Below, piece by piece: positions 628-24,750 of a stretch of 26,220 bases of DNA; within the stretch, counting starts at the first letter, position 1, and every line of letters begins with the position of its first letter. The stretch is from the IMG/VR virus record IMGVR_UViG_3300047277_000091, positions 1 to 26,220 of that record. One strand, written 5' to 3'. A program made the translations under genes and the position numbers. This DNA comes from a virus. A model generated the notes under the pieces. It was not told the origin of the DNA. It did not search any database and worked only from the letters and a program-made list of their open reading frames with translations.

Positions 628-885
628 ATGAGAAATGCAATTGAAATTAGATTAGAAATAGTAAGAAGTCTAAGACAAGATAAGTTTAAAACACTAGATT
701 TAGAAGTAATCTTAGCAGTAGAACAAGGAGTTCCTCTTACAGATCTATATGCTAAGAAGCAAAGATATAGAGATTTAACAGAGCCTTATAAGTCTTTATT
801 ATTACAAGAAACAATAGAACAAGACGAAACAAACCCTATTTTAAGTCATCAATGGGATGTTTTTACTAGCGTAAATTGGAGTTAA
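628..885 (+). CDS. Small protein after tail gene, possible tail fibre assembly protein
   Basis: An 85-residue protein with SD AAAAAGGGG before the ATG. It is charged and predicted helical in the first half (RLEIVRSLRQDKF, then YAKKQRYRDLTEP). Small genes directly after a tail fibre often encode assembly chaperones with an R-D-x-x-L type helix followed by a later LRD-like segment, and the layout here resembles that. I see no diagnostic motif, so the function is inferred from position and general shape. The stop codon (883-885) lies inside a copy of the TTAATAAGT promoter motif, so this gene ends a transcription unit or is read through into the next. Confidence 0.55.
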   Translation: MRNAIEIRLEIVRSLRQDKFKTLDLEVILAVEQGVPLTDLYAKKQRYRDLTEPYKSLLLQETIEQDETNPILSHQWDVFTSVNWS

Positions 886-891
886 TAAGTT
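882..891 (+). promoter_or_regulatory. Late-promoter motif, variant TTAATAAGTT
   Basis: Nine of ten bases match the recurrent TTAATAAGTA motif. It overlaps the stop codon of the preceding gene. Directly after it, CATATAG (892-898) can pair with CTATGTG (916-922) with one G-T pair, giving a leader stem-loop. A terminator hairpin follows before the next gene at 969. Confidence 0.55.
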
Positions 892-935
892 CATATAGAT
901 AGATGTCTCCTCTAACTATGTGAATTAATATAAAT

Positions 936-957
936 AGGGAGGTAACTCCCTGTTTTT
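936..957 (+). terminator. Intrinsic terminator between promoter motif and holin-like gene
   Basis: AGGGAG-GTAA-CTCCCT forms a perfect 6-bp GC-rich stem with a 4-base loop, followed by GTTTTTA. It lies between the promoter motif at 882 and the ATG at 969, so it would attenuate transcription from that promoter as well as stop read-through from the fibre genes. Confidence 0.65.
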
Positions 958-1409: not shown

Positions 1410-1877
1410 ATGGATATAAAAGATTTTGAATCAGAATTAATGAAAACACTAAACAGTGTTATTAGTGAATTGAACTCAAAGCCAGTATTACAGGAAATAG
1501 GCGACCAAGTAGTTGAAATTATTAAAAAAAGAACACGTACAGGTTATGGCGTTGATAAGAGTGGTGGCAGTAAACAGAAGTTAAAACCCTTAGCAACTAG
1601 TACTAAAAAAACAAGAAAGAAGAAAAAATTAGATAGTACAACAACAGCAAGTAAGTCAAATGTGACTCAAACTGGTGATATGCTTAGAGATTTAGGTGCT
1701 TACGTAGAAGATGAAAAGGTAACTATAGGGTTTAAAGACTCAATTTTACTGAAAAGAGCTGAATATGTAAGTGAAGATAGACCTTTTAATACCTTGTCTG
1801 CTATAGAGATAGAACAGGTAAAAAAGAAAATAGAACTAAAGCTTAATAATTTAATAAAAAAAGCTAATAGTAAGTAA
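1410..1877 (+). CDS. HK97-gp10-like / virion morphogenesis (neck or tail completion) protein
   Basis: A 155-residue protein with the pattern seen in small head-tail joining proteins of the gp10 / phage virion morphogenesis type: an N-terminal helix (QVVEIIKKRTRTG), a glycine- and lysine-rich segment beginning YGVDKSGGSKQKLKPLATST, then TQTGDML, a strand pair ending VTIGF, and a RPFNTL motif close to the C-terminus. The 156-residue protein at 16417-16887 shows the same succession (IVDKIQENTSQGKDRHG, LTGDMMASL, VITIGY, RPFIGL), so the two look like distant paralogues. The start is 1 bp after the upstream stop. The family call is by pattern only. Confidence 0.55.
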   Translation: MDIKDFESELMKTLNSVISELNSKPVLQEIGDQVVEIIKKRTRTGYGVDKSGGSKQKLKPLATSTKKTRKKKKLDSTTTASKSNVTQTGDMLRDLGAYVEDEKVTIGFKDSILLKRAEYVSEDRPFNTLSAIEIEQVKKKIELKLNNLIKKANSK

Positions 1878-1884
1878 ATTCAAG

Positions 1885-1894
1885 TTAATAAGTA
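1885..1894 (+). promoter_or_regulatory. Late-promoter motif TTAATAAGTA
   Basis: Exact copy, 7 bases after the stop of the gp10-like gene and 55 bases upstream of the scaffold ATG at 1950. It would drive the scaffold and major capsid genes up to the terminator at 3421. Confidence 0.75.
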
Positions 1895-1901
1895 GTAATT
1901 A

Positions 1902-1920
1902 GGATAGAATGTTTCTATTC
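1902..1920 (+). promoter_or_regulatory. Leader stem-loop of the scaffold/capsid transcript
   Basis: GGATAGAA-TGT-TTCTATTC forms an 8-bp stem (one G-T pair) with a TGT loop, starting 7 bases after the promoter motif. The terminase and portal leaders have the same arrangement and loop. Confidence 0.6.
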
Positions 1921-1949
1921 AAAAAGATAGGTTGTACCTAGGAGTATTT

Positions 1950-2522
1950 ATGATTGATGAAGTGAATAAAGAAGTAGTAGATGAGTCAAAAGAGGAATTC
2001 GTTCCAAAAAAGGCTTACAAAGAAGTTTCAGATGACATGTTTAAGTATAAGAACAAGTTAAAAGAGACAGAAGCATTACTTAACCAGATGTCAGCTGAAA
2101 AAGAAGCAGCATCAGTTCAGTCCCTAAAGGAAAATGAACAATGGAAGACTCTTTATGAAAAGAATCAAGCTCACTTAGATACTATCGAGGCAACTAGAGC
2201 ACAAGAAAAAGACCAGTTTGTTAATTACCACAAGAAAAATGCGGTATTAAAAGAACTTGGTGGCTTTAAGAAAGATGAATATACTAGCTTTATCAACGTA
2301 GGTTCGATTGAGTTAGATGATGAAGGAAATGTAACTCCAACTAGTTTAATAACGGAAGTTAATAGAATTAAACAAAGTTACCCAGAACTCATCAAAAGTG
2401 CTCCTGCTAATAACTTACCAAGTAATGCTCCTAAGAGTATTGAAGTTGCAGGAAAGCCATATAGTCAGATGACAGAGAAAGAAAAGGGTGAATTTAAAAT
2501 GAGTTTACTAATAAAGAAATAA
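1950..2522 (+). CDS. Capsid scaffolding protein (GP20-like minor structural family)
   Basis: A 190-residue, highly charged, mostly helical protein directly upstream of the major capsid gene, the usual place for a scaffold. Residues about 20-95 are predicted coiled coil (DDMFKYKNKLKETEALLNQM and onward), followed by the short conserved-looking block KNAVLKELGGFKKDEYTSFI and a DDEGNVTP loop. This coiled coil followed by an LKELGGF/D-x-x-x-x-x-x segment is typical of phage GP20-type scaffold proteins. The frame is open back to a TTG at 1932, but the ATG at 1950 is chosen because AGGAG (1940-1944) lies 5 bases before it. No protease domain is seen. Confidence 0.75.
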   Translation: MIDEVNKEVVDESKEEFVPKKAYKEVSDDMFKYKNKLKETEALLNQMSAEKEAASVQSLKENEQWKTLYEKNQAHLDTIEATRAQEKDQFVNYHKKNAVLKELGGFKKDEYTSFINVGSIELDDEGNVTPTSLITEVNRIKQSYPELIKSAPANNLPSNAPKSIEVAGKPYSQMTEKEKGEFKMSLLIKK

Positions 2523-2550
2523 TAACAGCTTTTTACACAAGGAATAAACA

Positions 2551-3399
2551 ATGGCTATCTTATCAATCAATGACGTACTTCGTCAAGAAATCTTAGAATC
2601 TCTAGAAGGTTCTGAATCTATCCTAGTTAAGTCAATCATTAACTTAACTTCACAAGTTAAACCAGGTTCTGACAGAACTACTATTCCTAATGTTACAGGA
2701 TTGGCATTGTCATCTGTTACTTCAGGATCAAGAGCTTCTGCTGGTGGTATGACTACTACTGGTTCAGTATTATTGCTTGACCAAGTAAAACAAGTTCCTG
2801 AGTATATCGACTATGCAAACGGAGTTCAATCTGCTCTTGAGTTGAAACAAGCATTTCTTTCTCATTCTCCAAAAGTATTTGCTCAAGGTATCGAAGCTGC
2901 TATCGCTGCTAAACTTGCTACTGCTTCTGCTGGTGACTTTGATGCTGCTTCAGCTACTGCTGGTGTTTTCGTTATTGGTGACATTGCAAATGCTAAGAAA
3001 AAACTAGACCAAGCAAAAGTTCCATACAATGACCGTTGGATGGCTGTTAATGCTGAAGGTATGTCAATCCTTGCTTCTATGTCAGAATTCCAAGATGGAC
3101 AAAAATCTTTATCTGCTGAAGCTCTTCGTCAAGGTGCTGTTTCTCAAGTTAAAGGATTCAAAGTAATCCAATCTGAAGACATCGCTGGAACTGGTGCAAC
3201 TCTTAAAGTTCACTTTTATCATCAATCTGCTGTAGCATTCGCTCTTCAAGATGGTGTAAAATTTGTTGAACAAATGGATGAAGCATACGGACAAGAATTC
3301 GTAGCTTTACGTGGTATCTACGGTGTTATTGACACTGATAATGCTGGAGCTGCTGGTAAACGTAAAATCACTATGTTATGTTCTACTGCTACTGCCTAA
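2551..3399 (+). CDS. Major capsid protein
   Basis: A 282-residue protein straight after the scaffold gene and closed by a strong terminator, with SD AAGGA. It has features of an HK97-fold coat protein: an N-terminal helix, a glycine/serine loop, a helical spine segment (QSALELKQAFLSHSPKVFAQ), an ADIANAKKKLDQAKVP-type helix, the strand NDRWMAVNAEG, and a VKGFKVIQSE strand followed by an HQSAVAFALQ motif, both common in coat proteins of the P22/HK97-like class. Codon choice differs from most neighbours: frequent GAC, ATC, TTC and CGT suggest selection for very high expression. Confidence is high from fold pattern plus position, though the exact subfamily is not determined. Confidence 0.85.
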   Translation: MAILSINDVLRQEILESLEGSESILVKSIINLTSQVKPGSDRTTIPNVTGLALSSVTSGSRASAGGMTTTGSVLLLDQVKQVPEYIDYANGVQSALELKQAFLSHSPKVFAQGIEAAIAAKLATASAGDFDAASATAGVFVIGDIANAKKKLDQAKVPYNDRWMAVNAEGMSILASMSEFQDGQKSLSAEALRQGAVSQVKGFKVIQSEDIAGTGATLKVHFYHQSAVAFALQDGVKFVEQMDEAYGQEFVALRGIYGVIDTDNAGAAGKRKITMLCSTATA

Positions 3400-3420: not shown

Positions 3421-3449
3421 AAGGGAGCCTAGGCTCCCTTTTTTTTTTA
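3421..3449 (+). terminator. Strong intrinsic terminator after the capsid gene
   Basis: AAGGGAGCCTAGGCTCCCTT is a perfect palindrome (9-bp stem, 2-base loop on paper; fewer pairs close in practice) running into ten T residues. It ends the scaffold/capsid transcript 21 bases after the stop codon. Confidence 0.92.
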
Positions 3450-3454: not shown

Positions 3455-3464
3455 TTAATAAGTA
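3455..3464 (+). promoter_or_regulatory. Late-promoter motif TTAATAAGTA right after a terminator
   Basis: Exact copy 6 bases after the T-run of the capsid terminator and 16 bases before the ATG at 3481, with SD AGGAG in between. Since the terminator should stop upstream transcription, the fibre operon 3481-8952 needs a promoter here and this motif is the only candidate. This is the clearest evidence that the motif is a promoter. Confidence 0.8.
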
Positions 3465-3480: not shown

Positions 3481-3711
3481 ATGACATTTATTACACCTAA
3501 ACCGTACATATCATATAAACACATCGAAGCTAAATCTCCACAGGAATTAGAATTGATTATGTTAGCTATATCTGTAAAATCACAAACACCAACAGAATTC
3601 ACTCCTCCATCTTTTAGTAATAATAAATGGCATAGTTGGTTCTTATATGATTTTTCAATAGATGTTTTACCTAAAGATAAACTAGATATGTCTAATGAGG
3701 ATAAATTATAA
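3481..3711 (+). CDS. Small protein of unknown function, first gene of the fibre operon
   Basis: A 76-residue protein with a good SD (AGGAG, 6 bases before ATG). I do not recognise a family. It contains a tryptophan-rich patch (NNKWHSWFLYDFSIDVLP) and no membrane segment or signal peptide. Its stop overlaps the start of the next gene (ATAATGG), so it is co-translated with the virion protein that follows. Position as the first gene before the long fibre suggests a virion or fibre-assembly role, which is inference only. Confidence 0.65.
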   Translation: MTFITPKPYISYKHIEAKSPQELELIMLAISVKSQTPTEFTPPSFSNNKWHSWFLYDFSIDVLPKDKLDMSNEDKL

Positions 3712-8955: not shown

Positions 8956-8965
8956 TTAATAAGTA
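8956..8965 (+). promoter_or_regulatory. Late-promoter motif TTAATAAGTA
   Basis: Exact copy 3 bases after the stop of the glycine-rich gene and 29 bases before the ATG at 8995. It starts a neck and tail-tube unit that ends at the terminator at 11486. Confidence 0.75.
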
Positions 8966-8994: not shown

Positions 8995-9834
8995 ATGATA
9001 GATTTAAAATCAACATTAACTGTAAAAACTGAACTTGAAACTACATTTAGCGATATAAGTTCAAAAACAGCTAATTTTTCTAGAGATCTAGTGACGATTA
9101 CTCTATTAGACACATCAGATCATATTTATGTTGGGTTTCATAAACCTATAAATAGTTTCTATTTTAATCATAATACAGTTGATTTAACTGAAGCAACAAT
9201 GACATTAGAGTTCTATAATGGATCTGAATGGGTTGCTTGTTCTGATCTTGCTGATGACACTTTAGGACTTAAGCGTTCTGGATTTGTTAACTTTAATAGA
9301 GTTCAATTAAATCAAGTAGTTAACGCAGTTGATGGATTAAGTAAGTATTGGTATAAAATAACTATATCAGCTGGAGTAACAGACTTAGTAATTTCAGGTA
9401 TCAATTTGGTATTTGCTGATGATTACTCTCTTTTATTAGAACAACCTTATGTAACCATGCCTGAGTTCTTAGATACTCAACTTAGTCATATCCTTATCCA
9501 TGCTGCTTGTAGAAACGAGATTATCCAGTACTTCCGCAATAAGGACTACTATAAGATAGATGCACAAGGGGTTAAACAAGACATTAATGCTTGGGATTTA
9601 TTAGAGATTGAAGAGGTTAAACAAAGTGCGGTATTCCTAGCCATGTCTAAGATCTATTTTAACATGTCTGATACAAATGATGACATCTGGGCTGTAAAGG
9701 CTAATGACTATAGAGAAAGAAGCCTAAAAATGCTTCAAGTAGCTAGTTTATCAGTGGATTTCAATGATAATGGCTTAAGTGATGCTCCTGAACAAAAAAT
9801 GGCTAAACTAAACTCTACTTATATGAGTAGATAA
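8995..9834 (+). CDS. Neck / head-tail connector-like protein
   Basis: A 279-residue protein with SD AAAAGGAA. The N-terminal 140 residues are beta-rich (HIYVGFHKPINSFYFNHN, MTLEFYNGSEWV, KYWYKITISAG) and resemble a jelly-roll or Ig-like domain. The C-terminal half is helical with paired segments (HILIHAACRNEIIQYFRNKD and EEVKQSAVFLAMSKIYFNMS, then YRERSLKML), the kind of helix bundle found in head-tail adaptor proteins. It is followed by a tail-terminator-like gene and the tail tube gene, the usual neck order. The function is inferred from this order plus the helix pattern; an extra beta domain fused to an adaptor would be unusual. Confidence 0.5.
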   Translation: MIDLKSTLTVKTELETTFSDISSKTANFSRDLVTITLLDTSDHIYVGFHKPINSFYFNHNTVDLTEATMTLEFYNGSEWVACSDLADDTLGLKRSGFVNFNRVQLNQVVNAVDGLSKYWYKITISAGVTDLVISGINLVFADDYSLLLEQPYVTMPEFLDTQLSHILIHAACRNEIIQYFRNKDYYKIDAQGVKQDINAWDLLEIEEVKQSAVFLAMSKIYFNMSDTNDDIWAVKANDYRERSLKMLQVASLSVDFNDNGLSDAPEQKMAKLNSTYMSR

Positions 9835-9839: not shown

Positions 9840-9849
9840 TTAATAAGTA
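9840..9849 (+). promoter_or_regulatory. Late-promoter motif TTAATAAGTA
   Basis: Exact copy, 13 bases before the ATG at 9863; SD AGGAGG follows at about 9853-9858. This is the shortest motif-to-start distance in the window, implying a very short leader if transcription begins at or just after the motif. Confidence 0.75.
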
Positions 9850-9862: not shown

Positions 9863-10303
9863 ATGGTTAAAACTATTAATGACGGTATTCTTGCTAGACT
9901 TTTGGTTGTTTTGCCAACATACTCTAAACTAAGCTTTGGAAGCAATGTTTCGCTTAATAAGTTTGGAAGAAGTAGTAAGAGATTTGGAGTTATTCCAAAA
10001 GGAGCTAGCGATAGTTCTGGATCAGTAGGGGTTAATACTATTGATCATAGTTTTGAAATAACACTAACTGATGGATATGTATCTGGTCCAGCAATGGGAT
10101 TAAATGATGACCTAAAGATGCTTAAGGTATCAGAATTACAGGATAATGCATTATTGGTATATAAAGATTTGCAGTTAAATAAGAACCTATTAGCGAGTGG
10201 AATTCTTATTGTAAGTGAAATTAATATGAGTGAAGTAGTGTTTTTAGAAGAAGAAAACGTAGCAGTATTAAAATTTGATTTAAAAATAAAATATAAAGTT
10301 TAA
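9863..10303 (+). CDS. Tail terminator / tail completion-like protein
   Basis: A 146-residue protein with a near-perfect SD (AGGAGG). It has an N-terminal helix (INDGILARLLVVLPTYS), central strands (SFEITLTDGYV), and a C-terminal strand pair (VVFLEEENVAVLKFDLKIKY) that resembles the beta-alpha pattern of tail terminator proteins, which also end in long strands. It directly precedes the tail tube gene (15 bp gap), as tail terminators usually do. I see no sequence signature that settles it, so the assignment rests on size, position and secondary-structure impression. Confidence 0.5.
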   Translation: MVKTINDGILARLLVVLPTYSKLSFGSNVSLNKFGRSSKRFGVIPKGASDSSGSVGVNTIDHSFEITLTDGYVSGPAMGLNDDLKMLKVSELQDNALLVYKDLQLNKNLLASGILIVSEINMSEVVFLEEENVAVLKFDLKIKYKV

Positions 10304-12427: not shown

Positions 12428-12436
12428 AAAAACTCC

Positions 12437-13407: not shown

Positions 13408-13417
13408 TATTGTTTAA

Positions 13418-13969: not shown

Positions 13970-14015
13970 ATATGCTCCGTTTAACTATAGTGACTTAATT
14001 GCCACTTATTTTTTA

Positions 14016-14045: not shown

Positions 14046-14150
14046 ATGAAAATAAAAGTGGGCTTTTTTAAGGCTTTTTTTGAACTATTTTTACTATTTT
14101 TGAATAATAATCAAAGAAATGAATAATATCAATAAGTTAGATGAAACAGA

Positions 14151-14160
14151 TACTTATGGG
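14151..14160 (-). promoter_or_regulatory. CCCATAAGTA element, copy 1
   Basis: Identical to the minus-strand 10-mer at 14591-14600. It shares the ATAAGTA end of the late motif but differs in the first three bases. Both copies point into the minus-strand non-structural genes. It may be a weak or alternative phage promoter; evidence is limited to two identical copies in similar positions. Confidence 0.3.
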
Positions 14161-14169
14161 AAAAATAGT

Positions 14170-14556: not shown

Positions 14557-14590
14557 TTATATCTCCTTTGTTTTATAATACAATTACAAC

Positions 14591-14600
14591 TACTTATGGG
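14591..14600 (-). promoter_or_regulatory. CCCATAAGTA element, copy 2
   Basis: Overlaps the stop codon of the M15 peptidase gene and lies 34 bases before the ATG at 14556. It occupies the same stop-overlapping position as several TTAATAAGTA promoters. A TATTATAAA sequence lies between it and the SD, so a conventional -10 box could be used instead. Confidence 0.3.
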
Positions 14601-15174: not shown

Positions 15175-15622
15175 TTAAGTCCTTTTCAACTAATTGATAC
15201 TCATTAAATTCATTTGCTTTATTTATTCTTTTTTCAATAGCGTTCATTCTTTCTAATGCTCTTTGAACTTTTTCTTTAGTAGAAAGCACTGTTTCTTCTT
15301 TTTTGTTTAAGTTTTCTACTTTTTTAATAAACTCAGGATGTAACTCATAAGTAGGCGTAGTTCCTTTGTCATGTCTAATTGAAATCCCTTCTATCAGTAC
15401 ATCATTTTTTAATAAATCATTAAATGCTCTACATACATTACTTTTGTGTTTATTCAATGACTTAGCTATTGATTCTTGAGTTGGGTTCCATTTAGGGCCA
15501 TTAGTAAACCACATTAAAAACACATTTCTTTTCAATTGACAGCGATTAAATGGGCCTAAATTCAATATACAGTATTGAACAATTTGGTCTGCTAGTTTAA
15601 GATTTGATTCTGGTACTTTCAT
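15158..15622 (-). CDS. Winged-helix protein, replication or transcription regulator
   Basis: A 154-residue protein. Residues about 8-80 form a winged helix: LADQIVQYCILNLGPFNRCQ, then WNPTQESIAKSLNKHKSNVC with the recognition helix KSNVCRAFNDLLKNDVL, and a wing reaching TPTYELHPEF. The C-terminus is a long charged coiled coil (STKEKVQRALERMNAIEKRI). This layout resembles the N-terminal DNA-binding domains of phage replication initiators (O-like) as well as stand-alone regulators. It is the first gene of the minus-strand operon, adjacent to the iteron region, which favours binding to the repeats at 15.80-15.98 kb. SD AAAGGAG lies 6 bases before the ATG. Confidence 0.68.
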   Translation of the reverse strand: MKVPESNLKLADQIVQYCILNLGPFNRCQLKRNVFLMWFTNGPKWNPTQESIAKSLNKHKSNVCRAFNDLLKNDVLIEGISIRHDKGTTPTYELHPEFIKKVENLNKKEETVLSTKEKVQRALERMNAIEKRINKANEFNEYQLVEKDLNEKAN

Positions 15623-15644
15623 ATTTTGCTCCTTTTAGTTACTA

Positions 15645-15674
15645 TTTCTTATTATATCTTAAAGCTTAGGGTTT
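15645..15674 (-). promoter_or_regulatory. Early-type promoter, copy 1
   Basis: On the minus strand AAACCCTAAGCTTTAAGA leads into TATAAT (15656-15651) and AAGAAAT, about 29 bases before the ATG at 15622. The -10 is a perfect TATAAT. The sequence is shared with copy 2 at 14016-14045. It would start the operon of winged-helix, repeat protein, M15 and GIY-YIG-like genes. Confidence 0.6.
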
Positions 15675-15800
15675 TCATATAATATATATTAACTTAATTG
15701 TTCGTTTTTTTATCATATTTACATATAAAAACTCAATTTTGAATAATTTCAACCATTTAAAATTAAAATATATTTTTTAATAAAACAAGAATCCGATAAA

Positions 15801-15842
15801 CTCTCCGAACACTCTCCGAACACTCTCCGATAAACTCTCCGA
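15801..15842. repeat. Four CTCTCCGA direct repeats at 11-12 bp spacing
   Basis: CTCTCCGA starts at 15801, 15812, 15823 and 15835, with AACA or TAAA between copies; a partial fifth (ATCCGATAAA) precedes at about 15791. Spacing near one helical turn would place bound proteins on one face of the DNA. Confidence 0.9.
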
Positions 15843-15849
15843 GCTAACT

Positions 15850-15975
15850 GGTTATCATTTCGAGCACTTTTTAAGGTAACTGGTTATCATCTCAGCATTA
15901 GGTGGTTATCATCTCAGCATTAGGTGGTTATCATCTCAAGGACTTTTACGCCAAAAAGTGCTCGAAATGATAACC
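15850..15975. repeat. GGTTATCAT iterons inside a 23-bp perfect inverted repeat
   Basis: GGTTATCAT occurs at 15850, 15882, 15904 and 15926 on the plus strand and inverted at 15967-15975. The copies at 15882 and 15904 are part of two identical 22-bp tandem units, and the unit at 15926 is a partial third. The first copy and the inverted copy belong to arms 15850-15872 and 15953-15975, which are perfect reverse complements over 23 bp and enclose 80 bp. Confidence 0.92.
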
Positions 15976-15987
15976 TTCTTATAAATC

Positions 15988-16022
15988 TTATAAAAGTACT
16001 TATAAAAGTACTTATAAAGAAC
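15988..16022. repeat. 12-bp direct repeats carrying tandem TTTATAAGTA elements on the minus strand
   Basis: TTATAAAAGTAC repeats at 15988 and 16000, followed by a shortened third copy at 16012 (TTATAAAGAAC). Read on the minus strand, TTTATAAGTA appears twice (16018-16009 and 16006-15997), one base different from the late motif TTAATAAGTA, both pointing into the iteron region. Confidence 0.8.
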
Positions 16023-16089
16023 TTTTTCTTAAACCTTTTTAATTTAATAAATTTAAGATCAGCTCGGCAAGCCTTCGCTGAAGAGTAGC

Positions 16090-16108
16090 CAGTTAGATCA
16101 TCTAACTG
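16090..16108. repeat. Perfect palindrome in a GC-richer island
   Basis: CAGTTAGA-TCA-TCTAACTG forms an 8-bp perfect inverted repeat with a 3-base spacer. Just left of it CTTC-GCT-GAAG (16073-16083) is a further small hairpin within GGC...GCC. No T-run follows, so an operator or structured element is more likely than a terminator. Confidence 0.6.
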
Positions 16109-16306
16109 ATAAATTATTGTTTGATTAAAGTTTGTTTTTATTGATTTGTTTTTATTACTTGGTTTATATTGATTGATCATTAGAACTGATTAAATGGCTT
16201 AATTTGATGTTTGTTTTAGTTATATGATAAAAGGGTAGGCCTAATTAAAATAATGGCTTAAAATGGCTACAATGACTTCGTTTTATAACAAATGGTATTT
16301 TTGACC

Positions 16307-16339: not shown

Positions 16340-16411
16340 GTTATTATTTTGGAGGAGCTTCCGACTATAATTGAGTCAAGAAACACGTTACCACACATAT
16401 CCCTTAATACT
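16307..16411 (-). ncRNA. Candidate small RNA between a late promoter and a terminator
   Basis: A minus-strand TTAATAAGTA (16420-16411) lies just 70-100 bases ahead of a strong minus-strand terminator, with no start codon followed by a useful reading frame between. If the motif is a promoter, a transcript of about 100 nt would result. It contains a small GACT...AGTC hairpin and an exposed GGAAGCTCCTCC stretch. Its existence depends on the motif being active here; no homology to a known RNA is recognised. Confidence 0.35.
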
Positions 16412-16420
16412 ACTTATTAA
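16411..16420 (-). promoter_or_regulatory. Late-promoter motif TTAATAAGTA, minus strand
   Basis: Exact copy overlapping the stop codon of the gp10-like gene. Unlike all other intergenic copies it has no gene shortly downstream; the next element is the terminator at 16339-16307. Confidence 0.6.
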
Positions 16421-16887
16421 AAACCTAGAAACTTTTTAAGAAGATTATTAACTACATCATTTTTTTTAGCTATATAATCACTACCAGAATTAACAGTAGC
16501 TATTATTAAGTCTAAATCGTTCTGAGGTAATCCAATGAATGGTCTTTTATGATCAACTTGATTACCCTCTACTTTACCAGCATCTGGGCTACTGCTTTTA
16601 TAACCTATTGTAATTACACCACTTTGAATACTTATAACTTCTAGACTTGCCATCATATCACCAGTAAGTTCTAGATTTACTAAATTGGTTTTACCAGCAT
16701 TCTTAAAGTCTAAACTATCTTTATATGATTTTGAGTAAGATTTAAATGAATTACCATGTCTATCTTTACCCTGTGAAGTATTCTCTTGAATCTTATCAAC
16801 TATCATCTTAGCAGCCAATGATAGCTGTTCTTCGTTAAAGGACGTAGGAATACTAAACTTTGTTTGTATATTACTTAAAGTCGCCAT
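16417..16887 (-). CDS. HK97-gp10-like / phage virion morphogenesis protein
   Basis: A 156-residue protein with the pattern of the virion morphogenesis / gp10 type of neck and tail-completion proteins: a helix AAKMIVDKIQENTSQGKDRH, a G-x-x-F-x-x-YSKSYKDS segment, VNLELTGDMMASLEV, a strand VITIGY, the sequence AGKVEGNQVD, RPFIGL, and a C-terminal helix. These proteins help join head to tail or finish the tail. The start is coupled to the portal gene: SD GGAG lies in the last portal codons and the ATG is 2 bases past its stop. A second protein of the same type lies at 1410-1877 on the opposite strand. Confidence 0.72.
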   Translation of the reverse strand: MATLSNIQTKFSIPTSFNEEQLSLAAKMIVDKIQENTSQGKDRHGNSFKSYSKSYKDSLDFKNAGKTNLVNLELTGDMMASLEVISIQSGVITIGYKSSSPDAGKVEGNQVDHKRPFIGLPQNDLDLIIATVNSGSDYIAKKNDVVNNLLKKFLGF

Positions 16888-16889
16888 AC

Positions 16890-18350
16890 TTACTCCGAAA
16901 TAGGAGTGTTAAGTATTTTATTTACCTGATTCACTTGATCATTAGCGCCACTTGCTTTAAAATCAGCAATTTCTTGTAACATAAGATCAATTTGTTCTTC
17001 AGTAGCTTCTGGATTAAGTTTAAATAAAGCCATTTTTGGAGTCATTAAACCTAGATCAAATGCTAGTTTTAGTTCTTCTAGTGTTGCTTTCTCATCTACT
17101 ATTACTTTATGTTCACAAAATTTAATACTCGGTTCAAAGTCAATGCTAAAGTCACCAGATATATCTACTAATTGTTGAGTAGAAGCCCAGTATCCATGCA
17201 TAGTTTGAATCAAATCCCAAAGATCATCTTCATAAGCTTTAAACAGGTTTATTTGCTTTCTAGTTACAGCACTGGCATCACCCTCATCAATAAGCTTAGC
17301 TATACCAGAACTGGCATTAGCAGCGTTAATAGAGCCATTAGCACCTGACTTAATTCCTTTAGAACTTAACCACATATCCATTTCAGTATTAATCAAAAGT
17401 ATTACCTTATCAATGTCAACTTCTGGTTTAATTGTTCCAATGCTAGGAGTCTTTCCTTCACCAGGTACACTATTAATAGACCAAAAAGCGTCAGGGTTGT
17501 TATCTAATTGTCCTATTTCAATGTCTATACCATAAACAATGCTATGTGATTGAAATTGCGTAGCATAATTTATATCTGTTAAAAGCTTAGGTATTAATAC
17601 AACCATTGCAAGATTATCTGCATCTGGTGTAGGCATAATGCTAAAACTATTAGTAGCACAATATACAAAAGGAATTTCACCATAAGGATTATCTCTAATT
17701 TCAATTATAACACCATCAGCATCCATGATCATAAACTCTAAATCACTGTAAACATGATACAAAGCAACATCTCGTACAGAAACTTCAGCATTCTTACTAA
17801 TAACTCCTCTAGAGTCTACAACAGGAGTATCAGTTTTCTGTATAGTTCCCATAAATTTAATAAATACAGTAACATCATTAGGATCGTTAGGATTATCACT
17901 CCAAACCAAGAATTTATCAGCAGGAAGGATTCTCATATCAGGAACACCTCTTTCAAGGTATGGTTCTAAAGCAAAGTATTTATTAAGGTTCAATAACTCA
18001 TTAGCTAAAGCCATAGTGTTATCTACATCTAACTCTTTTTCATAATAAGCCAATAACTCTTGGTCAATAACATTATCACCAGCATCTCGTACTGCTGGTT
18101 CAACATAAACCTTACTTAACTTCTCAACTACTTTGTTCAATATATTGATAGGAGCAATCCTACCTCTACTTCTTTCAAAAGCTCTAGGATTCAACTCTAA
18201 TTTCAAACTATCTTCCACATATTTCAATAAGTTACCGCTATATATGTCTAAAAGCTTTTTATTATAGATGACTTGGTTCTGGTAAGAAACTCGTATATAA
18301 GATAAGAGTTCAACAGATAGGTCTTTTAATGGTTTTTGAGTGTTTGACAT
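16890..18350 (-). CDS. Portal protein
   Basis: A 486-residue protein, the usual portal length. Segments typical of SPP1-type portals include FERSRGRIAPINILNKVVEK in the N-terminal part (the R-x-x-x-N region), DMRILPADKFLVWSDNPNDP, a NPYGEIPFVYCATN motif (the N-P-Y/F-G-x-I-P-F signature of the portal clip/wing region), a long helical stretch (MVVLIPKLLTDINYATQFQS), and a C-terminal KATLEELKLAFDLGLMTPKM helix. It forms the dodecameric DNA gate at one capsid vertex. SD AAAGGAA precedes the ATG. Transcription would start from the minus-strand motif at 18403-18412. It faces away from the terminase genes, whereas in most phages they are co-directional. Confidence 0.9.
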   Translation of the reverse strand: MSNTQKPLKDLSVELLSYIRVSYQNQVIYNKKLLDIYSGNLLKYVEDSLKLELNPRAFERSRGRIAPINILNKVVEKLSKVYVEPAVRDAGDNVIDQELLAYYEKELDVDNTMALANELLNLNKYFALEPYLERGVPDMRILPADKFLVWSDNPNDPNDVTVFIKFMGTIQKTDTPVVDSRGVISKNAEVSVRDVALYHVYSDLEFMIMDADGVIIEIRDNPYGEIPFVYCATNSFSIMPTPDADNLAMVVLIPKLLTDINYATQFQSHSIVYGIDIEIGQLDNNPDAFWSINSVPGEGKTPSIGTIKPEVDIDKVILLINTEMDMWLSSKGIKSGANGSINAANASSGIAKLIDEGDASAVTRKQINLFKAYEDDLWDLIQTMHGYWASTQQLVDISGDFSIDFEPSIKFCEHKVIVDEKATLEELKLAFDLGLMTPKMALFKLNPEATEEQIDLMLQEIADFKASGANDQVNQVNKILNTPISE

Positions 18351-18402: not shown

Positions 18403-18412
18403 TACTTATTAA
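18403..18412 (-). promoter_or_regulatory. Late-promoter motif TTAATAAGTA, minus strand (portal)
   Basis: Exact copy on the minus strand, 52 bases before the portal ATG at 18350. It is paired head-to-head with the plus-strand copy at 18418, separated by 5 bases, so the two share one divergent promoter. Confidence 0.75.
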
Positions 18413-18417: not shown

Positions 18418-18427
18418 TTAATAAGTA
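18418..18427 (+). promoter_or_regulatory. Late-promoter motif TTAATAAGTA, plus strand (terminase)
   Basis: Exact copy 53 bases before the terminase small subunit ATG. With its mirror copy at 18403-18412 it forms an almost perfect palindrome driving portal and terminase in opposite directions. Confidence 0.75.
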
Positions 18428-18480: not shown

Positions 18481-18930
18481 ATGCCAAAACCAATTTCATC
18501 TGCCGATGCCGTTCCTAGAACGTCCAAAGCTCAAAAAACCCTATTTATTTCATTCTTACTAGATATGATAGCTCAAAATTCTACAAGAAATCAATGTGTT
18601 AACGCATTAGCTGCTAAATTTAGCATATCTACACATCAAGGATATAAGTACTTCATAGAAGCTTCGGAACAACTTGAATCAGATTTACATGATAAGGTAT
18701 CAAAGATTAGATATAGAAGAATTCATGCTCTAAACAAAGATATACAGGATGCTTATAAAAACTATATAGAAAGTAAAGATCCTTCTATTAAGGTAAAATG
18801 GTACACTCTCTATTTTAATCTTAAGAATCAACTAGACAATTACTACCCTAACGCTTTAAAACCTGTTCAAAATAACGAAGAACTAAACATAAGTATTGTT
18901 TATAATAAAATCAAAGCTTTAGATAAATAA
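18481..18930 (+). CDS. Terminase small subunit (putative)
   Basis: A 149-residue basic protein immediately upstream of the terminase large subunit. The N-terminal half carries a helix-turn-helix-like region (FLLDMIAQNSTRNQCVNALA, then AKFSISTHQGYKYFIEASEQ), as expected for the DNA-recognition domain that binds the packaging site. The second half is helical (IRYRRIHALNKDIQDAYKNY) and could serve as the oligomerisation core. SD CAGGA lies before the ATG. The gap to the large subunit is 33 bp. The identity comes mainly from location, size and the HTH; small subunits are poorly conserved. Confidence 0.7.
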   Translation: MPKPISSADAVPRTSKAQKTLFISFLLDMIAQNSTRNQCVNALAAKFSISTHQGYKYFIEASEQLESDLHDKVSKIRYRRIHALNKDIQDAYKNYIESKDPSIKVKWYTLYFNLKNQLDNYYPNALKPVQNNEELNISIVYNKIKALDK

Positions 18931-18963
18931 GGTATTCTAGTAAATTCAAGGACTTAGAGACAA

Positions 18964-20184
18964 ATGGAACATAATATAACATTATTAGATTACCAGTTAG
19001 ATGCAATACAAGCTAAGCAAAGAGAGATACTTGTCTCAGCTGGTATTGGTACAGGTAAATCATACTTAGGAGCAAATTGGTTACTATCAAAGATAATAGA
19101 AAACCCAGGTTGTAGAGCATTCATAGGTGCTAATACTTACTCACAGCTTATCCAAGCATCAGTCAAAACCTTTACCACACTATTAGATGAACTTAAAATA
19201 CCATATACTTCTACTTTATCTGGATCACGTAAACGTATAGAGATTGGATCAACACTAATCTACCTTTACTCATTAGACACACCAGACAATATAAGAGGTA
19301 TAGAAGTCTCATTTGCTTGGCTAGATGAGATAGCTTATTCAAGTCTAAAAGCTTTAAACGTAGTTAGAGGTCGTATGAGGGCTAAACAAACCCCATATAG
19401 ACAGATGCTCATGACTAGTTCACCTAATGGTTTTAACTTCTTATATGATGAGTTTGTAGTCAATATATCGAATAATCAAAGACTTATACAGGCTAAAACA
19501 AGGGACAATATATTTTTACCTGATGGATACTACCAAGATCTACTACATCAATATGGAGGTGAAAACTCTCCATTAGCTCAACAGGAATTGTTTGGAGCCT
19601 TCGTTAACCTACAAGAAGGGGCTATCTATAACCAATTCACTAGGGGTATAAATGTTGTCCCTTGTACTTTAAACTCACTATATCCTGTTTATGTTGGATG
19701 TGACTTTAACGTTGATCAAATGTCTGCTACATATATGCAGTATATTAATGGTATATTCTACCAGTGTAAGGAGATACAACTTACACATAGAGATGCTAAT
19801 ACTTATGATTTAGGTCAACGTATTATCAATGACTTAAAAGGCTTTAACATTCAATTAATATGTGACTCTACTGGTAAAGCACGTAAGACATCAGCTAGTT
19901 CTGGTAAGACTGATCATCAAATCCTTAGAGACTTAGGCTTAACCGTAATGGAGACATCTAATCCACTAATAAGAGATAGGCAAAATACAGTTAATGTAGC
20001 TTTCCTAAAGAAACAATTGGTTATTGATCCATCATGTCCACAGACAATTAAGGAAATAGAAACGCTTTCATCTAGGGATACTGAAGGTAAAGTAAGTCAT
20101 TTATCAGTAACAACTGGTTATGTTCTATGGAAACTTGCTCCTCTACAACCTAAACGTAAAGCATCGCACACTATACACATGTAG
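18964..20184 (+). CDS. terL: Terminase large subunit
   Basis: A 406-residue packaging motor with ATPase and nuclease domains. Walker A is GIGTGKS (27-33), Walker B is FAWLDE (117-122, Asp121 and catalytic Glu122), and the coupling motif is TSSPNG (151-156). The nuclease domain begins around residue 235, with acidic residues Asp247 in VGCDFN and Asp301 in ICDST. The usual third acidic residue, normally in a D-A-x-x-Y context near the C-terminus, is not obvious: the corresponding segment reads HLSVTTGYVLW, so another residue such as Asp372 may serve. At 406 residues it is on the short side for the family. The SD is weak. The protein pumps DNA into the prohead through the portal. Confidence 0.92.
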   Translation: MEHNITLLDYQLDAIQAKQREILVSAGIGTGKSYLGANWLLSKIIENPGCRAFIGANTYSQLIQASVKTFTTLLDELKIPYTSTLSGSRKRIEIGSTLIYLYSLDTPDNIRGIEVSFAWLDEIAYSSLKALNVVRGRMRAKQTPYRQMLMTSSPNGFNFLYDEFVVNISNNQRLIQAKTRDNIFLPDGYYQDLLHQYGGENSPLAQQELFGAFVNLQEGAIYNQFTRGINVVPCTLNSLYPVYVGCDFNVDQMSATYMQYINGIFYQCKEIQLTHRDANTYDLGQRIINDLKGFNIQLICDSTGKARKTSASSGKTDHQILRDLGLTVMETSNPLIRDRQNTVNVAFLKKQLVIDPSCPQTIKEIETLSSRDTEGKVSHLSVTTGYVLWKLAPLQPKRKASHTIHM

Positions 20185-20194
20185 TTAATAAGTA
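20185..20194 (+). promoter_or_regulatory. Late-promoter motif TTAATAAGTA
   Basis: Exact copy directly after the terminase stop codon and 30 bases before the chaperone ATG at 20225, with SD AGGAG in between. Confidence 0.75.
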
Positions 20195-20224: not shown

Positions 20225-20656
20225 ATGAGCAATGGATTCAGAATTTACAAAACAAACCAGAAAATCGAGATTAAAGTAGATGACATATCTATCTTCATCT
20301 CACCCCTTTCTTACCACCAAAAGTTAGATTTACAAGATCTTATGCTAAAAGCCTCTCAAGGTGATATGAATGCGGCTATGTCTGCTATTGTTAAAGCATT
20401 AAAAGTATCATTAAAAGACATTAAAGGTGTAGTGCAAGACGATGAAGGAACTGAGTATAAACTGGAGTTTATCGATGGTGAAGTATCTGATGATTGCGTT
20501 AATGATCTTCTTAATATGCCCTGTTCTAATAAAATTAGTACTATATGTACTTCTTTACTAGCAGGTGTTCCAGATAAAATCCTAGGTGCAGACGGACAAC
20601 CACTAGAAGGTGTATCTATCGTTAAACAAAAAGCAGTGTCTAAGCCAAAAAAGTAA
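20225..20656 (+). CDS. Tail assembly chaperone, short form (gpG-like)
   Basis: A 143-residue protein upstream of the tape measure. It contains FISPLSYHQKLDLQDLMLKA, a strand followed by a helix as in chaperone N-domains, then an acidic region and a C-terminal tail ending SKPKK. These proteins coat the tape measure during tail assembly. The SD AGGAG fits the ATG at 20225 (7-base spacing). The last codons CCA AAA AAG TAA contain a -1 slippery heptamer that allows a fraction of ribosomes to continue into the next frame, giving a fusion of about 300 residues. The family is assigned mainly from this arrangement. Confidence 0.85.
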   Translation: MSNGFRIYKTNQKIEIKVDDISIFISPLSYHQKLDLQDLMLKASQGDMNAAMSAIVKALKVSLKDIKGVVQDDEGTEYKLEFIDGEVSDDCVNDLLNMPCSNKISTICTSLLAGVPDKILGADGQPLEGVSIVKQKAVSKPKK

Positions 20657-20703
20657 TAGGGGTTTTCTATTACAGTAGTCTTTGGGAGTATGTTTACTCC
20701 CAA
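20647..20703 (+). promoter_or_regulatory. Programmed -1 frameshift signal (slippery site plus two stem-loops)
   Basis: The heptamer A AAA AAG occupies 20647-20653 in the correct phase for a -1 slip just before the stop of the first chaperone frame. Directly after, GTAATAG-GGGTTTT-CTATTAC (20653-20673) is a 7-bp perfect stem-loop, and TTGGGAGTA-TGTT-TACTCCCAA (20682-20703) is a 9-bp one. A AAA AAG is the same heptamer as in E. coli dnaX. The new frame is open from here to 21126. Confidence 0.85.
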
Positions 20704-21126
20704 GTATTGGAAATCTCTAAACTTTCTGACGCAGACTACGCCCTTATAAATGCTACTTGGTTAAACTTGACTAATGAAGACTTTCAGTGTAAGCGAACAG
20801 AAGGGTTATTATCTAATAGAAGTGATGCAGAAGTTGCAATTAAAGCTATAAGACAAAAGAAAGGTTGTGGAGTTATAACTAAACATTCAAAGGTCGAGAT
20901 AGATAGCATTGCTTTTCACTCATGCTTATGTCATGAGAACTTTCAACATCCTTTAATGGGATCGTTTTTAACATTAGAAACAGCTTACAGTAAAGGAACA
21001 TTGCCATTTACTGGTGGTTTAATGGATCAACCTGCCCAGATCATTGATATACTTAGCTTAATAAGTAGTCTAAGAGCAGAACATGATCTAGATATACAGA
21101 CAAAAGCTGCCAAAAAGAATAAGTAG
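20653..21126 (+). CDS. Tail assembly chaperone, frameshift extension (gpT-like part of GT)
   Basis: The -1 frame is open without a stop from the slippery site to TAA at 21124-21126, giving 157 residues joined to the 143-residue short form (about 300 in total). The junction reads VIGVFYYSSLWEYVYSQVLE, then SKLSDADYALINATWLNLTN, a helical region like that after the shift in siphovirus GT proteins. A stand-alone start at the TTG 20707 is possible by frame but has no proper SD, because the nearby GGGAG is locked in the second hairpin. The tape measure gene follows after 23 bp. This is the usual G-GT-tape measure order. Confidence 0.82.
   Translation, partial: VIGVFYYSSLWEYVYSQVLEISKLSDADYALINATWLNLTNEDFQCKRTEGLLSNRSDAEVAIKAIRQKKGCGVITKHSKVEIDSIAFHSCLCHENFQHPLMGSFLTLETAYSKGTLPFTGGLMDQPAQIIDILSLISSLRAEHDLDIQTKAAKKNK
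21058..21067 (+). promoter_or_regulatory. Late-promoter motif TTAATAAGTA inside the end of the chaperone gene
   Basis: Exact copy within the last 70 bases of the GT reading frame, 82 bases before the tape measure ATG at 21150. It is the only exact copy that lies well inside a coding sequence; position suggests it gives the tape measure its own transcript, though chance cannot be excluded. Confidence 0.55.
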
Positions 21127-21149: not shown

Positions 21150-23498
21150 ATGGCTTCAGTCAATTTTGATTTAAAACTAGCTACTGCTGGTTTTCAACAA
21201 TCCTTATCTCAGGCATCAAATAGCGTTAATTCATTTAGCAAGACAGCAACAGATAGCTTAGACAAGGTAGATACTAGTAGTAATGATTTAAGTAAAACTA
21301 TGTCAGGATCTCTAAAGGGATCTATTTCTGGCATAGGTCTTACTATGTTTGCAGCTAACATAGCAACAAGTGCTTTTCAAGCATCTATGCGTTTTCTATC
21401 AGATACTATTACAGGATCTATATCTGCTTATGCTGGATCTGAAGAAGCTCTAAATAAACTAAAACAATCAATGAACTTAACTGGTACTTACTCAGAAGCT
21501 GCCTCTAAACAGGTTGAGCAATTTGCTACTGCATTAGAAGCATCCTCTAAGTTTGCCGATGATGCCATAGTTACTCAAGTAGCTTATGCAAGATCTCTAG
21601 GTCTTTCTACAGATCAATCTGAGAAATTAGTCCAAGCTGCTGCTAATATGTCTGCTCAGTTTGGTGGAAGTCTAGAAGAAAACGTAGCAATCCTAGGTAA
21701 AACACTAGATGGTACTATAGGACGATTAGGTAAACAGATCACAGGAACTGATCAATTAGGTAAATCTATTAAGGGTTTAACCGAAGAACAGTTAAAAGCT
21801 GGCGGTGCTGCTGACTATATTAATGCTAGATTTAACGGAGCTGCTGCTGCTGATCTAAATACATATGCTGGTAAAGTAGCATACATGAAGAATCAATACG
21901 ATAACTTACAGGAATCAATAGGTAGTGTTATAGTCAATAGTGGAGTATTCCAATCTGCTATGGAGATAACTAAGAATGCTATTATAAACACTACTAAGTG
22001 GATAGAATCACACACATCTCAATTAAATGATTTAGGTTTAACTATTAAGATAACAAGTGCTTTAGCTGCAATAGCTGGTGCTTCTTATGGTATATACGCT
22101 GGATACATTGCCATTACTACTTCTGGTTTAACCTTAGTTACAGCAGCACAATGGGCATGGAACCTTGCTATGAACGCTAACCCAATCGTTTTAATAATAA
22201 CAGGTGTTGTTGCTTTGGGTGCTGCTATTTATGGACTTATAAGATACTGGGATGATTTAAAACTTGCAACCTTAAATATGACAGCTTCAGTATTATCATC
22301 ATTACTTCCTTTAGAAAAAGCTTTTAATGCTTTATTCCATACTGATGTAAGTGTAGTATCTAGTGGTTTAAAATCTATAGGTAAAGATGTAGATGATCTT
22401 ACTAAAAAGATACAAGAAAAGAACAAAGCACAAGCAGCTCCAATAACTACTACTGTAGCAACTGCTTCTAAAACTGATGGTTCTGGTACAGTAGACTTAG
22501 GTGCACAAAAGGCTATCAATGCTAATATAATTATTGAACATAAGTCTATGATAGCTCAAAAAACACTTATATCACAACAAGGTGCTCAGTCATTAATTGA
22601 TATAGAAAATGCTGCAAATAATGATCAAATTAATACTAGCATAGCTAACTCTACGTTATCATTAGAAGAGAAACAAACAGCATATCAAACTCAATTAGAG
22701 ATTAGGATAGCTCAACAACAAGAAGAGTTAATAGCTAATCAGGCATTAGAAGATGCTAAGGTTCAACAAACATTAGACGCTGAACTAGCTAAAGCAACAT
22801 TACTTACAGATTCAACAGAAAAGAAAAAGGCATTTGCTGCTGCTAATGATAAAGCTGAATTGGCTAGAGTTACTAATGCTTCTAAGCAACAAACAGATGC
22901 TTTAAGCTTGAGTACTAAACAACAAAAAGAACTTCAGACAAAAGCTGCTTCTGATAAGAAAGACATAGATGCTCAAAAAACAGCTTTAGAAGCAGGGTAT
23001 CAAACTGCTGCTTCTGGTTTTATTACTGCTGGTATGGCGTGGGCAAAGAAAGGTTCTGCTACATATAAGCACTTAGCTATAGCTGATGCTACTGTTTCTA
23101 CATACTTAGCAGCATCTAAGGCAATGGCAACAATACCTGCTCCAGCTAACTTTGCAGTTGCAGCTTCAATTATTGCTGGTGGTTTAGTTAATGTTGGTAA
23201 GATAACTTCAGTTGGTGACTATGCTAATGGTGGTTTTATTGGTGGAAGTTCATTCCAAGGTGATAATTTACAAGCTAATGTTAACTCAGGTGAAGCAGTA
23301 TTAAATACTTCTCAACAAAAAGAGTTTATGAAGATAGCTAATGGTGGCAATAATAACAATAGTTTACTTGATGCTATACATTCTTTAGGTGATAGAATAA
23401 TGAATATGGAAATCAAACTAATCGCAGATGATACAGAGATTGCTAGATCTACATCTAGAGGAGTTATGAATGGTATTCAAATAGGGAGTTCAAGATAA
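21150..23498 (+). CDS. Tail tape measure protein
   Basis: A 782-residue protein. The N-terminal 60 residues are helical, low complexity and Ser/Thr-rich (FQQSLSQASNSVNSFSKTAT), followed by a region typical of tape measures with EEALNKLKQSMNLTGTYSEA and ALEASSKFADDAIVTQVAYA (about 90-160). A hydrophobic segment of about residues 300-366 holds two likely membrane spans (ASYGIYAGYIAI and NPIVLIITGVVALGAAIYGL). Long Ala/Gln-rich helices follow, and the end shows ANGGFIGG, then VNSGEAVLNTSQQKEFM, a motif often found near tape-measure C-termini. At about 1.5 A per residue the tail would be roughly 115-120 nm. SD AGGA lies before the ATG. The stop overlaps the next start (TAATG). Confidence 0.9.
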   Translation: MASVNFDLKLATAGFQQSLSQASNSVNSFSKTATDSLDKVDTSSNDLSKTMSGSLKGSISGIGLTMFAANIATSAFQASMRFLSDTITGSISAYAGSEEALNKLKQSMNLTGTYSEAASKQVEQFATALEASSKFADDAIVTQVAYARSLGLSTDQSEKLVQAAANMSAQFGGSLEENVAILGKTLDGTIGRLGKQITGTDQLGKSIKGLTEEQLKAGGAADYINARFNGAAAADLNTYAGKVAYMKNQYDNLQESIGSVIVNSGVFQSAMEITKNAIINTTKWIESHTSQLNDLGLTIKITSALAAIAGASYGIYAGYIAITTSGLTLVTAAQWAWNLAMNANPIVLIITGVVALGAAIYGLIRYWDDLKLATLNMTASVLSSLLPLEKAFNALFHTDVSVVSSGLKSIGKDVDDLTKKIQEKNKAQAAPITTTVATASKTDGSGTVDLGAQKAINANIIIEHKSMIAQKTLISQQGAQSLIDIENAANNDQINTSIANSTLSLEEKQTAYQTQLEIRIAQQQEELIANQALEDAKVQQTLDAELAKATLLTDSTEKKKAFAAANDKAELARVTNASKQQTDALSLSTKQQKELQTKAASDKKDIDAQKTALEAGYQTAASGFITAGMAWAKKGSATYKHLAIADATVSTYLAASKAMATIPAPANFAVAASIIAGGLVNVGKITSVGDYANGGFIGGSSFQGDNLQANVNSGEAVLNTSQQKEFMKIANGGNNNNSLLDAIHSLGDRIMNMEIKLIADDTEIARSTSRGVMNGIQIGSSR

Positions 23499-24262
23499 TG
23501 AGCAATATGATTTTTGGTAATGATAACATGTTATTAACCGCACAACTATCCATTGTCTCAGGAACAGCTGATGCTCAATTCCCATTAGATAATGTTAAAC
23601 ATCCTTTTACTACTAAAGTGTTTAGAAGTACAGGAGCTTCATGCTCTATTCTAATAGATCTTCAATCAACTCAAGCAGTTGATCTTATATGTATTAAGGG
23701 TAGTTCAGTCGATGGACTAGGGTTTTCTACAGCTACAATAGAAGGTAGTGCTTCACCTGTATTCTCTGGTACACCTGTATCAATAGACATTAATACTATC
23801 AATGCCTTTGCTTTCAAAGAAATGTCTTCCTTATCTCTTCGTTACTGGAGACTTGTATTAACTGGATCTTCTTATGTAGAGTTAAGTAACATCTATATAG
23901 GAGTGAAGACTCAGATGGCAACAAACAACCTTAATATAGGTTTTAGTTATACAAGTAATACTAACAATAAAGTTACAAAGAACAACTATGGACAGAAGTT
24001 TGTAGATACATATAATTCTATTAAGACTATTTCTGGTGATGTTAAGTATGTAAATTCTACTGAATATGATACATTAAATGACATACATGTAGCTCATGCA
24101 GAAAACACTCCATTATGGTTTATATTAGATAGTGATAACTCTATTGGAGTAACAGACTCTAAGTATATGTTTTCAGGTATGTTCTATATGAAAGACTTAG
24201 TTTGGAAGAACATTGCACCAGGTCTATGGGATGTAAACATTAACCTAGATGAGGCGGTTTAA
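23498..24262 (+). CDS. Distal tail protein with discoidin-like fold (putative)
   Basis: A 254-residue protein right after the tape measure, where distal tail or baseplate proteins are encoded. Residues about 40-145 resemble an F5/8 type C (discoidin-like) beta-sandwich: CSILIDLQSTQAVDLICIKG, then TATIEGSAS, and LRYWRLVLTGSSYVELSNIY, the R-Y-W/L-R-x-x-x strand being typical. The second half has strands and ends LVWKNIAPGLWDVNINLDEA. Discoidin-like domains bind glycans or make contacts within tail tips. Start and stop overlap the flanking genes by the TAATG arrangement, so tape measure, this gene and the next form one translationally coupled series. Confidence 0.65.
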   Translation: MSNMIFGNDNMLLTAQLSIVSGTADAQFPLDNVKHPFTTKVFRSTGASCSILIDLQSTQAVDLICIKGSSVDGLGFSTATIEGSASPVFSGTPVSIDINTINAFAFKEMSSLSLRYWRLVLTGSSYVELSNIYIGVKTQMATNNLNIGFSYTSNTNNKVTKNNYGQKFVDTYNSIKTISGDVKYVNSTEYDTLNDIHVAHAENTPLWFILDSDNSIGVTDSKYMFSGMFYMKDLVWKNIAPGLWDVNINLDEAV

Positions 24263-24744
24263 TGTCAATCTTAGCTGTAAATTCTTTACAAGATAGTATA
24301 GCGGTAACTCAGACTATATACACATCTAGAAATATAACTGTTGATGGAATCAGAGTTCATATGTTAAAACTAGGTGTATTAACTGATGGAACAATAACAT
24401 TATTAGTTAAAGTAAACGGAACTACAGTTAAAACACTTACTAAAAGTTATACTGAATTCAATACCTTAGGCACTGAATGGCATGGTATGAAAAGTTGGGT
24501 ATTTGATAACCCATTGATAATAAAGAGATTACCTACCTTAACAGAAAATACTATAGAATTTGTATTAACTATTTCATCACATACAGACTCAGATACAGTA
24601 TTTTTATCAATAGTAAAAAGCTCAGATGTAGTAGGAACTATTAGGCATATACCAGCAGGATCTTATTATGCTACATATGGAGCAGATAGTGCTGAAGATG
24701 TATATAATAATCCTTATGATATAGAATTATACACACTTAATTAA
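24262..24744 (+). CDS. Beta-rich tail protein of unknown function
   Basis: A 160-residue protein of alternating strands (VDGIRVHMLKLGVLTDGTIT, LLVKVNGTTVKTLTK, IEFVLTISSHTD, VFLSIVKSSD), suggesting a jelly-roll or carbohydrate-binding-like sandwich. It is coupled to the upstream distal tail gene (TAATG). Its stop overlaps a TTAATAAGTA promoter that starts the next fibre unit. Probable tail-tip or fibre component on context; no family motif recognised. Confidence 0.6.
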   Translation: MSILAVNSLQDSIAVTQTIYTSRNITVDGIRVHMLKLGVLTDGTITLLVKVNGTTVKTLTKSYTEFNTLGTEWHGMKSWVFDNPLIIKRLPTLTENTIEFVLTISSHTDSDTVFLSIVKSSDVVGTIRHIPAGSYYATYGADSAEDVYNNPYDIELYTLN

Positions 24745-24750
24745 TAAGTA
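24741..24750 (+). promoter_or_regulatory. Late-promoter motif TTAATAAGTA
   Basis: Exact copy overlapping the stop codon of the upstream gene and 18 bases before the fibre ATG at 24769, with SD AGGAG between; the same arrangement as the copy at 3455. Confidence 0.75.

Follow-up and report, generated by a model that had tools for sequence, protein, structure and literature searches.

A short element, TTAATAAG, with the features of a -10-type promoter recurs before structural genes in a group of small siphovirus-like phages

The DNA analysed here, referred to throughout as the window, is a 26,220-nt stretch of IMG/VR record IMGVR_UViG_3300047277_000091 (labelled G000 in our searches). It is an incomplete contig of a siphovirus-like phage, with tail genes cut by both contig ends, and the principal genes are as follows:

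1950-2522, plus strand: scaffold gene
2551-3399, plus strand: P22-like capsid gene
11734-16180, minus strand: non-structural block, with a phosphoesterase, an HTH protein and a peptidase M15 endolysin candidate
11734-12252, minus strand: gene for a 172-aa protein of unknown function
13418-13969, minus strand: gene for a winged-HTH-like protein (phrog_1123)
16890-18350, minus strand: portal gene
18481-20184, plus strand: small and large terminase genes, the small one (18481-18930) named from its position alone
21150-23498, plus strand: tape measure gene

Protein searches of IMG/VR gave two relatives for comparison, G001 (31.8 kb; capsid 88% and large terminase 76% identical to those of the window) and G005 (33.1 kb; terminase 61% identical). 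The first 232 bases of G005 repeat its last 232 at 97.8% identity, so that its genome is probably complete at about 32.9 kb. Further relatives found in IMG/VR were G006 (terminase 50% identical) and the short contig L163 (capsid 60% identical).

The commonest 10-mer of the window, TTAATAAGTA, is present in ten exact copies over the two strands, all of them at the positions and in the orientations given in a preliminary description of this DNA. Between 0.41 and 0.96 copies are expected on both strands under Markov models of orders 0 to 5 (0.46 at order 3, P = 7e-11). The conserved core common to the window, G001 and G005 is TTAATAAG, of which TTAATAAGTA is the form seen in the window; this core is followed by T in the window, by T or A (C once) in G001 and by G or T (A once) in G005. 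The sites in the window, with their distances from the start codon where these were compared between genomes, are:

882-891, plus strand: variant TTAATAAGTT, overlapping a stop codon and before gene 969-1166
1885-1894, plus strand: TTAATAAGTA element before the scaffold gene (1950-2522) and the capsid gene; 65 nt from the start codon in the window, 68 nt in G001 and 67 nt in G005
3421-3440, plus strand: intrinsic terminator just upstream of the 3455 element
3455-3464, plus strand: TTAATAAGTA element directly after the terminator and before gene 3481-3711; the SD begins 7 nt past TTAATAAG
8956-8965, plus strand: TTAATAAGTA element before gene 8995-9834 (phrog_16539, function unknown); not kept in G001 or G005
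9840-9849, plus strand: TTAATAAGTA element before gene 9863-10303; the SD, AGGAGG, begins 5 nt past the core; 23 nt in the window, 25 nt at the orthologous G001 site
16411-16420, minus strand: TTAATAAGTA copy overlapping the stop codon of gene 16417-16887 (minus strand), with no structural gene just behind it
18403-18412, minus strand: TTAATAAGTA element before the portal gene; 62 nt from the start codon in the window, 65 nt in G001 and 40 nt in G005
18418-18427, plus strand: TTAATAAGTA element before the small terminase gene; 63 nt in the window, 64 nt in G001
20185-20194, plus strand: TTAATAAGTA element before gene 20225-20656 (tail assembly chaperone type); 40 nt in the window, 45 nt in G001 and 50 nt in G005
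21058-21067, plus strand: TTAATAAGTA copy inside the tail-chaperone reading frame 20707-21126, with the tape-measure start 92 nt further on; without a counterpart in G001 or G005
24741-24750, plus strand: TTAATAAGTA element overlapping the stop codon of gene 24262-24744 and before the tail gene 24769-25935; the SD begins 7 nt past the core; 28 nt in the window, 27 nt in G001 and 50 nt in G005

Measured from motif end to start codon, the gap to the next same-strand gene is 13-55 bases for eight of the ten exact copies, a range that had been reported for most of them; the exceptions are the copies at 21058 and 16411(-). The former is doubtful as a promoter. The latter is followed by a possible 42-aa ORF only and then, at about 16338-16305 and within about 90 bases of the motif, by a terminator-like hairpin (AAGCCAAGTA/TACTGGGCTT, one mismatch, then T8), and it is possible that this copy drives a short late transcript or a small RNA. 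The elements at 18403(-) and 18418(+) form a divergent pair, which is mirrored in G001 at 10054/10067. Several other statements of the preliminary description were borne out: the gene-strand placement supports its view that motif orientation follows gene direction, the terminator that it placed ahead of one copy is real, and the minus-strand non-structural block is indeed without an exact copy. It listed one variant, that at 882, but missed two more TTAATAAGTT copies at 7208 and 9954, both of which are inside genes and look like chance occurrences. The TTAATAAGTT form is also found before genes in G001.

An unbiased scan was then used to examine position, in which every 8-mer of a genome was scored, strand by strand, for its occurrence within the 90 bases ahead of gene starts as compared with the remaining sequence. 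TTAATAAG ranked first in both G001 (9 of 11 copies upstream, P = 6e-10) and G005 (8 of 11, P = 1e-8), and in the window it was among the top three overlapping words (9 of 13, P = 7e-9), where the first was the overlapping word AATAAGTA (10 of 11, P = 8e-12). Taken over the window, G001 and G005, 28 of the 35 TTAATAAG copies are no more than 110 nt before a same-strand start. Overlap of several copies with stop codons (TAATAA) could be a partial source of the position bias. Since the genome-wide excess of TTAATAAG in G005 is modest (11 copies against 6.8 expected, P = 0.09), the evidence from that genome is one of position and not of count. The genes concerned are mainly structural, but the motif is not restricted to structural units as had been proposed, two copies in G005 preceding non-structural genes and one in G001 preceding a peptidase M15 gene (probable lysis). 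TTAATAAG was not enriched before genes in G006, which lacks the motif, and no motif was found before the portal or scaffold gene of L163 despite the 60% capsid identity. Scans of IMG/VR by motif only (TTAATAAGTA with SD and ATG; TTAATAAGTAnnnTTAGGA; divergent pairs) returned mostly single chance matches.

Orthologous genes were paired by reciprocal best hits between genomes, and presence of the element was compared by Fisher's test. Between the window and G001, six genes had the element in both genomes, two in the window only and one in G001 only (P = 0.0017), and at the six shared genes (sites 1885, 9840, 18403, 18418, 20185 and 24741) the spacing to the start codon agrees within 5 nt. The corresponding tests with G005 were not significant (P = 0.5 for the window and G005, P = 0.12 for G001 and G005); the portal, scaffold and chaperone genes carry the element in all three genomes, and the tail gene at 24769 has counterparts with the element in both relatives. 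The flanks around the orthologous sites are 27-45% identical, which is near chance, and operon order and orientation differ between the genomes, so that the core stands out as a conserved island, with the qualification that these sites were picked by exact core match and identity of the core itself is thus by construction.

Alignment of the sites on the core revealed no conservation from -40 to -1 and no -35 element. At six sites (3455, 9840 and 24741 in the window; 15058, 30706 and 2886 in G001) the SD begins 5-8 nt past TTAATAAG, and because a transcript that includes this SD must start in the gap, TTAATAAG falls at the -10/start position. We rejected an arrangement in which the element is a distant activator site and is followed by a separate -10 box, since the same six sites leave no room for such a box. 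A terminator directly precedes the element at 3455 in the window and at 23933 in G005. Start codons follow TTAATAAG at distances of about 23 to 108 nt, and the 10 bases past the core are 73% AT against a background of 66-68% (raw percentages). The sigma70 pattern TTGACA/TATAAT with 16-18 spacing was not seen at the sites; one consensus match begins at 24741, but its -10 would fall on the start codon. An element of promoter type, common to the relatives and without sigma70 -35/-10 anatomy, is consistent with the promoter reading offered in the preliminary description.

We consider that TTAATAAG is probably a core promoter read by the host polymerase together with a non-housekeeping factor. Under this model TTAATAAG (in the window, TTAATAAGTA) would serve as the core of a promoter of the -10 type that has no -35 box. 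It would be recognised on the non-template strand, transcription would start about 5-8 bases downstream, and the element would head many structural and lysis operons in a small siphovirus-like phage group. Host RNA polymerase would open these promoters once carrying a non-housekeeping specificity factor, either a phage protein whose sequence does not reveal its role or an alternative sigma of the host, and the outcome would be a late-type programme. Counts, strand and position bias, conservation between the genomes, the missing -35 and the spacing to the SD are computed observations; that the element is a promoter, where transcription starts, that it is late and that host polymerase with a factor is used are inferences. 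The earlier designation as a late promoter agrees with a promoter-type element found mainly before structural genes, but the word late is taken from gene content alone.

In T4 the late promoter has been described as a TATA box of 8 bp that lies one turn ahead of the start, lacks -35 conservation and is followed by an AT-rich stretch (PMC2988020). As a yardstick, the identical 8-mer script was run on T4 73-120 kb, where the known late promoter TATAAATA was the first word (13 of 18, P = 6e-14); its sites are mostly 22-36 nt before an ATG and include two divergent pairs, stop-codon overlap and one site directly after a terminator. Like T4 late promoters, which depend on gp55, gp33 and gp45, the element of the window group is an 8-bp AT-rich sequence at the -10 position without a -35, and it too occurs in divergent pairs, overlapping stop codons and right after a terminator; the window sites read AATAAGTACTnTT against TATAAATACTATT. 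The core is different, however: TTAATAAG has an invariant G, unlike TATAAATA. The group is also unlike T4 in being of a siphovirus-like 30-33 kb type, and no relative of gp55 (by tblastn and phmmer, which a highly diverged gp55 could escape) or of gp45 was found in the window, G001 or G005. We take the likeness to T4 to be one of working parts and not of membership.

The preliminary description had raised as a real possibility a promoter for a phage single-subunit RNA polymerase of the T7 or mitochondrial kind. AATAAGTA does resemble the end of the yeast mitochondrial promoter at 7 of 9 letters (a partial letter match to ATATAAGTA), the element shares with T7-type and yeast mitochondrial promoters its shortness, strand specificity and location near the start, and the window contig is incomplete. 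Nevertheless, PF00940 was not detected in the window, G001 or the probably complete G005, with a T7 positive control at 1e-109; the large ORFs of G005 are accounted for by structural, helicase/primase or exonuclease functions; and no conserved initiation region is present outside the core. T7-type promoters are also about 20 bp in length, as compared with only 8-10 bp for the window element. The resemblance in letters is not accompanied by the enzyme, and we regard this explanation as highly improbable. Scarcely more plausible is an RNA processing or translation site, which would account for an element always on the mRNA strand and between stop codon and ribosome site but would sit poorly with its variable distance from the start codon, with the operon-internal genes that lack it, and with its occurrence between divergent genes and directly after terminators, where a promoter is needed.

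Host polymerase redirected by a phage factor, which the preliminary description also entertained, fits better than a T7-like enzyme, although no factor is recognisable in G005. The search for a sigma or late factor gene that it recommended yielded a sigma70-family protein in G001 (G001:19068-19997; L146:4068-4997), with matches to Sigma70_r1_2, Sigma70_r2 (E = 1e-20) and Sigma70_r3 and none to region 4. Sigma70_r2 was not detected in the window, an incomplete contig, or in the apparently complete G005, and phmmer with the G001 protein found no relative in either. A phage sigma of this type (regions 1.2, 2 and 3, no region 4) might itself read the element, a special case of the preferred explanation in which the window phage would have its copy of the gene outside the sequenced part, and G005 would rely on a diverged factor or one from the host. 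The missing region 4 would explain a -10-only promoter, and the gene adjoins a phosphoesterase gene that the window also has. There are parallels in phages 7-11 and phiEco32, where phage sigma factors read short promoters and a short conserved intergenic motif directs middle/late genes (PMC4331800). The present group is like these systems in its short motif and in the sigma70-family protein of G001, but no sigma gene was seen in G005 or the window, and the 7-11 core is TGATGT then TATA, not TTAATAAG. Against a window copy, synteny would place tail genes in the missing part of the contig. The G001 protein also has an HNH-like C-terminus, and with several HNH-type genes elsewhere in that genome the gene may have been invaded by one and is possibly broken. 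We think it rather unlikely that a sigma of this type reads the element. A site for a host alternative sigma, or an unusual host housekeeping promoter, would make a phage factor unnecessary, and we rate this as somewhat unlikely. It accords with the lack of any visible sigma or polymerase in G005, with the absence of recognisable function in the sole sure non-structural protein common to the three genomes, and with a motif limited to a narrow clade, as expected for one host group. On the other hand, the motif-free non-structural block of the window argues for stage-specific use. No related prophage was found in the 84,980 genomes scanned, and no relative with a named host was reached through the portal, regulator or integrase. 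The two sigma explanations are in part sub-cases of the preferred one, host polymerase with a non-housekeeping factor, and our confidences in them overlap accordingly.

As to a phage-encoded reader of another kind, the 172-aa product of 11734-12252 is the only non-structural protein that BLAST found in the window, G001 and G005. It is helical, its structure is predicted with low confidence (pLDDT 63, pTM 0.34), and its candidacy as the specificity factor is speculative. Equally speculative as a second candidate regulator is the HTH protein (13418-13969), which is common to the window and G001. A search of 50,697 named phage records gave no match to the portal, 172-aa and HTH proteins, and the G001 integrase had none in named phages either; terminase, phosphoesterase and exonuclease searches matched many distant phages, none of which indicated a host. 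In G001 a tRNA-Arg (TCG) gene (L146:8082-8158) beside the tyrosine integrase gene is a likely attachment site and a handle on the host.

We tentatively suggest that this siphovirus-like group of about 33 kb may have its own T4-late-like, -10-only system, in which a small phage protein of unknown type and not a recognisable sigma (for example, the 172-aa protein) re-aims the host polymerase to TTAATAAG. If so, promoters in the T4 late style, with a short element and no -35, would extend beyond the large T4-like phages to a 33 kb siphovirus-like lineage with an analogous system, another letter code and no recognisable gp55 or clamp. In that case the motif would also let operons be mapped directly in these uncultured phages, and would leave only a handful of small early genes among which to look for the factor.

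Other features of the window were noted during this work. Its minus strand at 16417-18350 carries the portal gene and one HK97-gp10-like gene and its plus strand at 1410-3399 a second gp10-like gene, scaffold and capsid, unlike G001 and G005, where portal, gp10-like, scaffold and capsid genes form a single operon; the split may reflect either a rearrangement or an assembly join. CCAAAAAAGTAA closes the gene at 20225-20656, and the reading frame that follows runs on as KKVIGVFYYSSLWEYVYSQVLEIS without a start codon, an arrangement (window 20600-20720) also present in G001. The pattern suggests a tail assembly chaperone pair linked by -1 programmed frameshifting, and if so the TTG at 20707 is probably not a true start. 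The phosphoesterase (12437-13147) is closest to versions from T7-like and Pelagibacter phages, at no more than 53% identity, and the window phage is otherwise unrelated to those phages. Within ORF 14980-15174, eleven 12-base repeats lie head-to-tail at 14986-15167 and encode a repeat peptide of the (S/Y)KL/SEL type. Lastly, a 30-base inverted repeat at 15850-15975 (90% complementary, arms 66 bases apart) falls between the non-structural block and the portal gene, and is a possible origin or attachment region.
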